Positions 3,522 through 29,393 of a stretch of DNA of 34,150 nucleotides are shown one piece after another. Within the stretch, counting starts at the first letter, position 1; every line of letters begins with the position of its first letter. The position numbers and the translations under genes were made by a program. The DNA is from Pseudomonadota bacterium (lineage in GTDB: Bacteria > Pseudomonadota > Gammaproteobacteria > Eutrophobiales > Eutrophobiaceae). The notes beneath the pieces were generated by a model. It was given only the letters and a program-made list of their open reading frames with translations, was not told the DNA's origin and made no database searches. The stretch is taken from positions 1 through 34,150 of the forward strand of contig JADFPU010000009.1 of the NCBI GenBank assembly GCA_022562175.1, written 5' to 3'.

Positions 3522-4808
3522 ATGAAAGTATTGATTGTGGGTGGTGGTGGGCGTGAGCATGCCCTGGCCTGGAAGGCGGTGCAATCAGCGGATGTTGAGA
3601 TCGTTTATGTTGCGCCAGGCAATGCCGGCACAACACTGGAAGCGGATGTTGAGAATGTATCGATAGCGGCAGAAGATATCGATGGTTTAAAAAAGTTTGC
3701 CCAGGATAATAAAATCGACCTGACTATCATAGGGCCGGAAGTGCCCCTGATTGCCGGCATCGTTGATGTCTTCACCGAAGCCGGTCTGCGTTGTTTTGGG
3801 CCCAGCAAAAAGGCGGCAATTCTGGAAGGATCAAAATCCTTTAGCAAGGAGTTTCTGCAACGACATAATATCCCGACAGCCGACTACGGTAGCTTTACTG
3901 ATCTGCAGCAGGCTACTGACTACATCAGGGAAAAAGGCACGCCGATCGTGGTAAAGGCCGATGGGCTGGCCGCGGGTAAAGGCGTACTGATTGCTGAAAC
4001 AGAGCAGCAGGCGATTGCTGCGGTCACCGATATGCTGTCAGGGAATAAGTTCGGTGATGCCGGTCATCGTGTCGTTATTGAGGAATTTCTGATCGGTGAA
4101 GAGGCCAGTTTTATTGTGATAAGCGATGGTGAACATATCTTGCCGCTGGCCAGTTCTCAAGATCACAAAGCAAGGGATGAAGGCGACAAGGGGCCTAATA
4201 CCGGCGGTATGGGGGCTTACTCACCGGCCCCTGTGGTGGATGAGACGATGCACCAACGTATCATGCGTGAGGTCATTGAGCCGACAGTTGCCGGGATGCG
4301 TGCTGAAGGAAGAACTTACCTTGGTTTCTTGTATGCCGGCGTGATGATTATGCCTGACGGTACTCTCAAAGTACTGGAATTTAACTGTCGATTCGGTGAT
4401 CCGGAGACACAGCCGATCCTGTTGCGTTTAAAAAGCGATCTGATCCTGTTATGTAACAAAACACTGGATGGTGAGTTAGATACTGTTTGCATAGAATGGG
4501 ATAAGCGCCCTGCCCTGGCAGTGGTGTTGGCTGCCAAAGGTTATCCGTCGGCTGTCAGCAAAGGAGATGTTATTCAAGGACTGGCAGAGAAATTCGACGA
4601 CAATATCAAAGTTTTTCATGCCGCTACGATGCAAAAAAATGGCGATGTGGTGACAGCAGGTGGGCGCGTGTTATGTGTGGCGGCATTAGGAGAAAATGTT
4701 ACTGCAGCAAAACAGCATGCTTACGAGACGATAAAAAAGATCAATTGGCAAGGAATGTTCTATAGGAATGATATCGGTCACAGGGCTGTTATGCGCGAGC
4801 ACAATTAG
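3522..4808 (+). CDS. purD: Phosphoribosylamine--glycine ligase
   Basis: 428 aa; MKVLIVGGGGREHALAWK...GPEVPLIAG...FNCRFGDPETQ; follows purH. Confidence 0.97.
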   Translation: MKVLIVGGGGREHALAWKAVQSADVEIVYVAPGNAGTTLEADVENVSIAAEDIDGLKKFAQDNKIDLTIIGPEVPLIAGIVDVFTEAGLRCFGPSKKAAILEGSKSFSKEFLQRHNIPTADYGSFTDLQQATDYIREKGTPIVVKADGLAAGKGVLIAETEQQAIAAVTDMLSGNKFGDAGHRVVIEEFLIGEEASFIVISDGEHILPLASSQDHKARDEGDKGPNTGGMGAYSPAPVVDETMHQRIMREVIEPTVAGMRAEGRTYLGFLYAGVMIMPDGTLKVLEFNCRFGDPETQPILLRLKSDLILLCNKTLDGELDTVCIEWDKRPALAVVLAAKGYPSAVSKGDVIQGLAEKFDDNIKVFHAATMQKNGDVVTAGGRVLCVAALGENVTAAKQHAYETIKKINWQGMFYRNDIGHRAVMREHN

Positions 4809-5012
4809 TTGCATTTTTTCTGCAGAATAACTGATTATTACCTGAAACATAATTTCCAGTTGTATTTAACCCTGTATACATAGGATAATTACCGTGCCTG
4901 GAGAAACACAGATGCAGGTGAAAACATTATTAGCCGTTGTCATATAAAGTGAGACGAAGGCTTATTTCAGTAATAAAACCACACGTTAAAAATCAGACTT
5001 TAAGGAGACACC

Positions 5013-27454: not shown

Positions 27455-27597
27455 GATATTCCCTCTGCGGTTATACTCGGTCTTATGTGATAGTTGGGAT
27501 GACAAGTATACCTTTTGTCGATAACTGTGGAAACTTGAGATAGACTAATCATATCAAAATATAGCCATCAGTTGCTGGTGGCTTACAGCATAATATT

Positions 27598-27677
27598 GCG
27601 CCTGTAGCTCAGATGGACGATGTGCAGGAAGCACAAGTGTCGCGGGAGGCAGGAGCCGGTAGCGACTAGAGTACTGC
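27598..27677 (+). pseudogene. Partial tRNA-Arg copy (first 31 nt) split in the D-loop by a 49-nt insert
   Basis: gcgcctgtagctcagatgga (27598-27617) and tagagtactgc (27667-27677) are contiguous in the intact tRNA at 27735; the 49-nt insert is 27618-27666. Confidence 0.85.
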
Positions 27678-27734
27678 AGTGCGCAGCACTGCCATACTTT
27701 GGACTGGATATTTAATAAGATTGAAAGAAAAAAC

Positions 27735-27811
27735 GCGCCTGTAGCTCAGATGGATAGAGTACTGCCCTCCGAAGGCAGGGGTCACAGGTTCGAATCCTGT
27801 CAGGCGCGCCA
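27735..27811 (+). tRNA. tRNA-Arg(CCG), CCA encoded
   Basis: 77 nt; acceptor gcgcctg/caggcgc; anticodon arm ctgcc-ctccgaa-ggcag gives CCG; T-loop ggttcgaatcc; ends gcca. Confidence 0.95.
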
Positions 27812-28076: not shown

Positions 28077-29393
28077 GGGGGTGTACAAATAACTGTGTAA
28101 CTGGTAATTATCAAGAAAGAGAAACAGGAGCAGATAATGACCAGCGTAACAAAAAAACAAGAAGCCTTATTAGATGAACTTCTCAAAGGCTGTGAAAAAC
28201 CGGAGGATATTCTGGGCGAGCATGGTCTCATGCGCGCACTACAAAAGCGGCTCGTCGAGCGTGTCCTGGAGGGTGAATTGACCGAAGAGCTTGGCTATGA
28301 AGCCCATGCGCCCTCTGGGCACGGCAGCGGGAATTCCCGCAATGGTAAGACTCGAAAGACGATCCAAACGGCGACCGACCAATTTGAAATTGAAGTGCCA
28401 CGTGACCGCAATAATGTCTTTGAGCCCCAGTTAGTCAAAAAGCGTCAGCGCCGACTCCCCGGTATCGATGAAAAAGTTCTTGCCCTGTATGCCCGCGGCT
28501 ACAGTACACGAGAGATTGAGGGCCAACTGGAAGAACTTTACGGCATCGACCTCTCACCGAGTCTGGTCTCCACGATCACCGACCAGGTCAAGGAAGATAT
28601 CGATGCGTGGCAGAACCGCCCTCTGGAGCCCATCTATCCCATCTTGTATTTTGATGCCTTGGTGGTGAAATCGCGACAGGATGGTCCGTCGAAGAACAAG
28701 GCCGTGCATGTGGCGCTGGGGATCAATATGGATGGCGAGAAAGTCTTGTTGGGCCTGTGGATGACCGAAAACGAAGGGGCGTCTTTTTGGCTATCGGTGT
28801 TCACTGAACTGAAGAACCGGGGTGTCGAGGATTGTTTTATCGCCTGCGTGGATGGGCTCAAAGGCCTGCCGGAGGCGATAGAAACCGTCTTTCCACAGAC
28901 GCAGGTTCAATTATGTATTGTGCATAAGGTGCGCTCCTCCTTGAAATATGTCCCCTGGAAAGAACGCAAGGCGGTGGCTGCTGATCTGCGGGCTGTCTAC
29001 GGCGCCGCCACCTTGAAAGAGGCTGAGAACGCCTTCACACGATTTGGTGACAAGTGGGATGAGAAATATCCTGCCATCAGTCCCAGCTGGAAGGCGGATT
29101 GGGACAGACTCACGGTCTTCTTCGACTACCCTCCAGCAATCCGGCGGGTGATCTACACCACCAATGCCATCGAGTCATTGAACTACTCACTGCGCCGATT
29201 ATTGAAAAACAGAGGGGCTTTCCCGACGGATGAATCGATCATGAAAGTTTTTTATCTGGCATTGAAAAACATTTCAAAAAAATGGACCATGCCTATTCAA
29301 AATTGGAAACAGGCATTGAATCAATTTGTTATTATTCTCGGTAGTGAACGGGTTATACTTTAGTGGCAGTTACACAGTTTAATGGACACCCTC
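28077..29393 (+). mobile_element. IS256-family insertion sequence
   Basis: Inverted ends at 28077-28104 and 29366-29393 (22 of 28 identical, core aactgtgtaactg) flank an IS256-type transposase. Confidence 0.85.
28137..29363 (+). CDS. IS256-family transposase (Transposase_mut)
   Basis: 408 aa; GSGNSRNGKTRKTIQT...LYARGYSTREI...CFIACVDGLKGLPEAIETVFPQTQVQLCIVHKVR...VIYTTNAIESLNYSLRR. Confidence 0.95.
   Translation: MTSVTKKQEALLDELLKGCEKPEDILGEHGLMRALQKRLVERVLEGELTEELGYEAHAPSGHGSGNSRNGKTRKTIQTATDQFEIEVPRDRNNVFEPQLVKKRQRRLPGIDEKVLALYARGYSTREIEGQLEELYGIDLSPSLVSTITDQVKEDIDAWQNRPLEPIYPILYFDALVVKSRQDGPSKNKAVHVALGINMDGEKVLLGLWMTENEGASFWLSVFTELKNRGVEDCFIACVDGLKGLPEAIETVFPQTQVQLCIVHKVRSSLKYVPWKERKAVAADLRAVYGAATLKEAENAFTRFGDKWDEKYPAISPSWKADWDRLTVFFDYPPAIRRVIYTTNAIESLNYSLRRLLKNRGAFPTDESIMKVFYLALKNISKKWTMPIQNWKQALNQFVIILGSERVIL

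Follow-up and report, generated by a model that had tools for sequence, protein, structure and literature searches.

Among the closest described counterparts of the element reported here are the CsrB/CsrC and RsmX/Y/Z sponges, in which several hairpins per RNA display CAGGA(U/A/C)G or ANGGAN loops. The CsrB repeat, CAGGA(U/A/C)G, is bound by CsrA, a global RNA-binding regulator, and the SELEX consensus for this protein, RUACARGGAUGU, places GGA in a six-base hairpin loop (PMC7652899). Our unit shares these loops and shows a weak likeness to RsmY; it differs in its position in a putative tRNA leader, in having two sites per basic unit and in having no terminator-type 3′ end. The RrA, RrB and RrF sRNAs of the Escherichia coli rRNA operons bind CsrA in vitro (PMC8144298). 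Like the leader proposed below, they are CsrA-binding RNAs co-transcribed with stable RNA, and hence growth-linked, but they lie at the 3′ end of rRNA operons, whereas the unit here would lie in a tRNA 5′ leader and is built from a mobile-type repeat.

Further parallels are found in tRNA processing and among dispersed repeats. The E. coli leuZ 3′ETS is a sponge derived from a tRNA external spacer that pairs with sRNAs; the shared idea is a tRNA-processing by-product acting as a regulator, here with a protein as the proposed partner and with the RNA on the 5′ side. The tandem rtT repeats of E. coli tyrT carry the tRNA 3′ end beside the tRNA, whereas the partial-tRNA repeats next to tRNAs described here carry the 5′ end, with hairpins in the D-loop. 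Rickettsia palindromic elements are short palindromic repeats that insert in frame into protein genes and also into RNA genes, as our repeat does, in another host group and, as far as is known, with another loop motif. REP/RAYT systems likewise consist of dispersed hairpin repeats, and Y1 transposases are commoner in genomes that carry our repeat; here, however, the stems vary while the loop is fixed, and the 20 RAYT/Y1 genes examined have no convincing copy beside them.

A split tRNA-Arg(CCG) duplicate

The window is a 34,150-nt stretch of a gammaproteobacterial contig (JADFPU010000009.1, family Eutrophobiaceae), and all features given for it lie on the forward strand. It contains an intact tRNA-Arg(CCG) gene at 27735..27811 (ARAGORN; 68 bits to the Rfam tRNA model), and nucleotides 1–31 of this tRNA are repeated 137 bp upstream, split after nucleotide 20 by a 49-nt insert, just as the first-pass annotation had read directly from the letters. 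The duplicate begins with GCGCCTGTAGCTCAGATGGA (27598..27617; 100% identity to tRNA nucleotides 1–20), corresponding to the acceptor 5′ strand and the first half of the D-arm, and resumes as TAGAGTACTGC (27667..27677; identical in sequence to nucleotides 21–31), corresponding to the 3′ half of the D-stem and beyond. The palindromic insert (27618..27666) is thus positioned in the D-loop and scores 74.6 bits against R1, a covariance model of the insert core that was itself built with this insert. Hairpin 1, TGTGC-AGGAA-GCACA (27621..27635), has a CsrB-type CAGGA(A)G loop by the consensus in PMC7652899, and hairpin 2 (27639..27666) has an outer stem GTCGC/GCGAC around an inner GGC-AGGA-GCC; both are drawn from folding and covariation. 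A third hairpin, GCAGTGC-GCA-GCACTGC, replaces the anticodon arm at 27676..27692, one base from the 27675–27691 first assigned to it, and related loci have a hairpin of other sequence at the equal position. The spacer that follows (27693..27734) is of nearly constant length between the loci compared, with no conservation of sequence.

Upstream of the duplicate, 27505..27560 is a probable tRNA promoter region on side-by-side reading, with a block, TTGTCGATAACTGTGGAAACTTGAGATAGACT, that is also present in an element-free tRNA-Arg(CCG) locus of another genus (L008); a consensus scan called no sigma-70 site in this block. About 330 bp downstream of the tRNA, an ORF of 408 aa (28137–29363) resembles, by eye, an IS256/mutator-type transposase. 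An Rfam search of the locus at the gathering cut-off returned only the tRNA, and comparison of the element with plasmid records returned only tRNA similarity.

Folded alone, the 49-nt insert reaches −18.6 kcal/mol (z −4.5), a value equalled by 0 of 200 shuffles, and forms both hairpins as they had been drawn by eye. Within 95 nt of sequence, the duplicate is predicted to close its D-stem around both hairpins, with hairpin 2 kept; within 137 nt there are competing folds, one minimum-energy fold opens hairpin 2, and the predicted fold of the longer leader is not unique. Misassembly of the duplicate is unlikely, as the arrangement recurs in independent genomes, and its recurrence in other genera and families places it far beyond chance.

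A dispersed palindromic repeat

A genome search for the 49-nt motif, named beforehand as telling against the annotation should it come back empty, found about 11 copies in the source genome (11 copies of the core with R1 at E < 1e-3, on E-values from a short calibration) and many elsewhere. Model R1 places the family in 78 of 369 gammaproteobacterial genomes sampled across the class and in 34 of the 53 genomes of the source family; these counts are of related sequences rather than independent events, and MAG assemblies break at repeats of this kind. A pattern scan of 84,980 species genomes, biased to one hairpin-1 sequence, returned 50 stretches. By title almost all of these are gammaproteobacterial, and in about 30 the match falls in the D-loop of a 5′ duplicate of tRNA-Leu (CAG, TAA, GAG, CAA) or tRNA-Arg; viral contigs did not match the pattern. 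Among the carriers are Bowmanella, Aliiglaciecola, Gilvimarinus, Marinagarivorans and Oceanicoccus, with Gilvimarinus chinensis DSM 19667, Bowmanella pacifica and Bowmanella denitrificans as cultured examples. Numerous copies scattered through unrelated contexts are the mark of a dispersed palindromic repeat (MITE/RPE-like), and it is well supported that the 49-nt insert is one copy of such a gammaproteobacterial family, with GGA in both loops. Neither Rfam nor the literature searched, mostly papers readable without subscription, held a name or description for it.

The main rival to an RNA function is a selfish palindromic repeat that spreads at the DNA level, probably into single-stranded hairpin loops, for which the D-loop of a spare tRNA half would be a harmless favoured site; the GGA and the stems would be needed by a mobilising enzyme, and no RNA function would exist. 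We consider this account possible, if on balance doubtful. It agrees well with the large number of scattered copies, for which R1 counts reach about 40 in one genome, and with copies that lie both between genes and within protein genes, where they leave the reading frame unbroken (phosphoglycerate mutase-like L119, MetE L128, HsdM L130 and MurD L134, named by eye from peptides). The latter occur in both orientations (by a rough coding score, with some genes miscalled, 17 are sense, 20 antisense and 16 ambiguous), which indicates that most of the family is not maintained for a sense RNA. Strand bias in protein genes was set aside as a test of RNA function, a small first sample being sense-biased and a larger one unbiased. 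Nesting of hairpins within hairpins (L034, L092, L042, L072, L083), two different insertion points in the tRNA-Leu D-loop and similar duplicates whose D-loop holds a hairpin of another family (L015, L034 at tRNA-Ser, L081) also favour spread at the DNA level. Y1 transposases are commoner in carriers (66/78 versus 159/291, p 8e-7, from a hand tally that ignores kinship), but 20 Y1/RAYT gene neighbourhoods, 58 kb in all, held no convincing copy, and the search for a mobilising gene found none. The first-pass suggestion of a REP-like palindromic repeat in a duplicated tRNA end is borne out by the copy numbers as far as the repeat goes, and is not supported in the strict RAYT sense, since the repeats do not flank the Y1 gene in the 20 neighbourhoods examined.

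Additional repeats accompany the family. A second one, ACGACTACAnGGATGTAGGAGGTAGAGnAATGnnTGGAnCAATTGCCGAG, is about 50 nt long, likewise shows GGA in its hairpin loops and is nested, being inserted in the first repeat or next to it (L032 719–790, L033 670–740, L034 520–570). A CAAATTTGC-CGGGA-GCAAATTTG hairpin family and more GGA hairpins are located in the D-loop of 5′ tRNA duplicates, at tRNA-Ser(GCT) in L034 (20–150) and at tRNA-Leu(CAA) in L081 (reverse strand, about 1780–1850), which suggests that the site attracts several repeat families. At another tRNA-Arg(CCG) (L015, reverse strand 1241–1530), about 60 bp of upstream flank and tRNA nucleotides 1–19 are duplicated around a different hairpin insert, and the third hairpin is formed where tRNA sequence joins the flank that lies upstream of it. 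In MAGs of Chromatiales and of other Gammaproteobacteria the core is embedded in a larger element with inverted repeats, CGTTTACGGAC...GTCCGTAAACG or a version of this (L049, L051–L053, L063, L068, L070, L073, L078, L082), with several copies in one MAG.

The unit ahead of tRNA-Leu and tRNA-Arg genes

In several families an intact tRNA-Leu or tRNA-Arg is preceded by the same parts in the same order, namely a 5′ tRNA duplicate that holds the insert in its D-loop, a stable triloop hairpin and a spacer. This basic unit is mostly 135–144 bp long, contains no gene and is often repeated in tandem. A DNA search of relatives found the arrangement upstream of tRNA-Arg with anticodons CCG (G009, G031), TCG (G005, G029) and CCT (G009), in two tandem copies in G015, and in G006. 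Of the copies that lie up to 400 nt from a tRNA, 42 are followed on their 3′ side by a tRNA-Leu or tRNA-Arg in sense; one lies near a tRNA-Leu in antisense and one near a tRNA-Gln in sense. In 22 of the 23 copies that lack additional inserts, 111–122 nt separate the insertion point from the tRNA start, with spacers that are mostly unrelated; longer distances arise because extra hairpins, many with GGA in the loop, are nested in the unit. The third hairpin has a perfect stem of at least 5 in 21 of 26 copies, against 4% of shuffles, in a sequence that varies. A selfish repeat alone leaves unexplained why the unit is placed in sense and confined to Leu and Arg tRNAs, why its third hairpin is conserved and why its length is nearly constant although the spacers are unrelated. 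Several third hairpins (for example among L003, L020 and L032) contain GCGAAGC, known as a DNA mini-hairpin of exceptional stability; this could hint at a role in single-stranded DNA. In L065 (reverse strand, near 4746–4856), a repeat of at least the first 36 nt of a tRNA-Cys lies 110 bp upstream of the annotated gene.

A location between tRNA-Cys and tRNA-Leu(TAA), all on the same strand, is found in a number of Alteromonadaceae, Cellvibrionaceae and Porticoccaceae, Bowmanella included, and a unit so placed is very likely inside a transcript. The unit of Bowmanella pacifica lies in a tRNA-Gly-Cys-Leu order, which is that of E. coli glyW-cysT-leuZ.

The duplication itself might be read as the footprint of a site-specific integrative element, or as the product of simple tandem duplication of the tRNA 5′ end, in which case the hairpins would be debris left at the junction. 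Such a footprint would account for a unit that regenerates the tRNA 5′ half, for tandem arrays (L045, L059, L069, L084, G415), for the junction hairpin of L015 and for the 5′ flank that some units repeat as well. The part of the tRNA that is duplicated is its 5′ half. No integrase was tied to the unit, however, and debris would hardly place one insert family at many unrelated tRNA loci; the family-wide recurrence weakens this reading, and we regard it as very improbable. An origin of the unit by simple duplication of a leader suits L041, L059, L084 and G415, but not the window, where the 5′ flanks of the two copies are unrelated (30% identity).

Empty and filled sites can be compared at tRNA-Leu(CAG) in one genus (g4). 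G029 lacks the unit, and its tRNA comes after a promoter-like block of the type TTGACA-N17-TAAAGT; in G003, G416 and G412 the unit is positioned between the same block and the tRNA; and G035 and G415 have at least two units with the upstream flank partly held, the contig of G415 beginning within the array. G029 set against G003 and G416 therefore provides the empty site expected for a dispersed repeat, as does the unit-free locus L008. It is the 5′ flank of the upstream half, not that of the intact gene, that matches the empty site, which indicates that the unit entered the 5′ part of the tRNA and the gene was regenerated. Among G003, G416 and G415 the segment from insert to tRNA is 84–87% identical, the insert only 76–78%. 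Hairpin 1 appears in these three as GTGC-ATGGAT-GCAC, ATGC-AGGAT-GCAT and ATGC-ATGGAG-GCAT, and the outer stem of hairpin 2 shifts among g4 orthologues from GTCGC/GCGAC to GTCGT/ACGAC. These shifts, with structure and GGA retained, are the best evidence in this report for selection on RNA or on a single strand.

Over the wider family, compensatory changes are seen in 11 of 12 base pairs, with 97.4% of cells paired over 115 distinct copies; the alignment was fitted to the model and its pairing counts lean towards it, while slid controls drop to 6–54%. The covariation observed was reached by 0 of 500 shuffles. Hairpin-1 stems include GUGC, GUAC, GCAC and AUAC, and hairpin-2 stems vary more. GGA is kept in the loop of hairpin 1 in 102 of 109 copies and of hairpin 2 in 96 of 109, partly through ascertainment by the model; in the linked copies L079 and L046 it is lost in one loop. 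The motif CA(N)GGA(N)G is present at a mean of 1.9 per copy, compared with 0.14 in shuffles, again in part an effect of that ascertainment.

A leader switch, in which the 5′ tRNA half and the hairpins compete for pairing in the precursor and set tRNA-Leu or tRNA-Arg output, with or without a protein ligand, is an unlikely alternative explanation of this structure. The D-stem of the duplicate is kept and able to close, and the middle GTCGC can pair with CGAY on the 5′ side or GCGAC on the 3′ side, as such a switch would need; the acceptor strand of the duplicate, however, is often decayed (L056, L065, L140). In genus g4 the spacer carries TGGTGCC, which is complementary to the tRNA-Leu 3′ end GGCACCA, and the spacers of L275–L280 have it in TTGGTGCCAA or a variant; this match also suits a switch, but is absent from the spacer in the window.

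CsrA-type loops and the proposed leader

The loop motif of the family, CAGGA(U/A/C)G, is identical to the CsrB repeat, and GUACAGGGAUGUAC-type copies fit the SELEX consensus RUACARGGAUGU letter for letter, in a six-base ANGGAN loop. The possible CsrA/RsmA link, raised as speculation in the first-pass annotation from the AGGA loops, is strengthened by this exact match to published motifs. As judged from sequence, the hairpins have the characters expected of a CsrA-binding RNA, with GGA in short loops of the CsrB/ANGGAN type and a structure apparently under selection around a fixed GGA. The annotation's other suggestion, a structured RNA made with the tRNA, agrees with the covariation, the sense placement and the site between a promoter-like block and the tRNA; from promoter position and operon context, the unit is predicted to be transcribed.

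The source genome has csrA, and no CsrB, RsmY or RsmZ match over the cut-off was found in it. At the locus, 27613–27690 resembles RsmY weakly (17.4 bits against a cut-off of 57, E 0.033), CsrB and RsmZ give no match, and RsmY models hit control genomes below the cut-off too. The best RsmY-model match of the source genome is elsewhere (G000:C242:18533–18674, 23.1 bits, also below the cut-off) and may be an RsmY-like RNA of its own. Presence of csrA in 73 of 78 carriers versus 239 of 291 other genomes (p 0.013) is a weak association, hand-tallied with kinship and genome size ignored.

Our preferred reading, to which we give an even chance, is that the palindromic repeat has been recruited into tRNA-Leu and tRNA-Arg leaders as CsrA-binding hairpins, in a unit that is transcribed, released by RNase P and used as a decoy or in control of maturation. 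The repeat sub-lineage in the unit, between the promoter and an intact tRNA-Leu or tRNA-Arg, would be transcribed as a pre-tRNA 5′ leader or inter-tRNA spacer, and RNase P would free the leader unit from the pre-tRNA. The hairpin pair of one unit is predicted to bind one CsrA dimer, and tandem units would provide more CsrA sites, the leader serving either as a decoy for CsrA that is linked to growth or as a stage of tRNA maturation under CsrA control. The fixed layout ahead of Leu and Arg tRNA genes suggests a CsrA decoy built into tRNA transcripts. The identity of the repeat is well supported; the leader function is what we infer from its sequence and placement. A selfish repeat and a recruited subset of it may both be true.

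The broader proposal, that in many gammaproteobacteria pre-tRNA-Leu/Arg leaders are a domesticated CsrA-binding palindromic element in a truncated tRNA D-loop, coupling stable-RNA synthesis to global post-transcriptional control, and that the wider family is a mobile source of CsrA sites, is a tentative one and somewhat less than probable. If the leader binds CsrA, transcription of tRNAs would itself adjust the amount of free CsrA to the growth rate, in a genome in which no CsrB or RsmY/Z was found. In that case a small mobile repeat would also have provided stable-RNA operons, repeatedly and in one and the same structural pocket, with hairpins already fit for protein binding. Even if the repeat is purely selfish, a class-wide repeat that favours hairpin loops and tRNA D-loops, with no mobiliser found, presents a testable problem.
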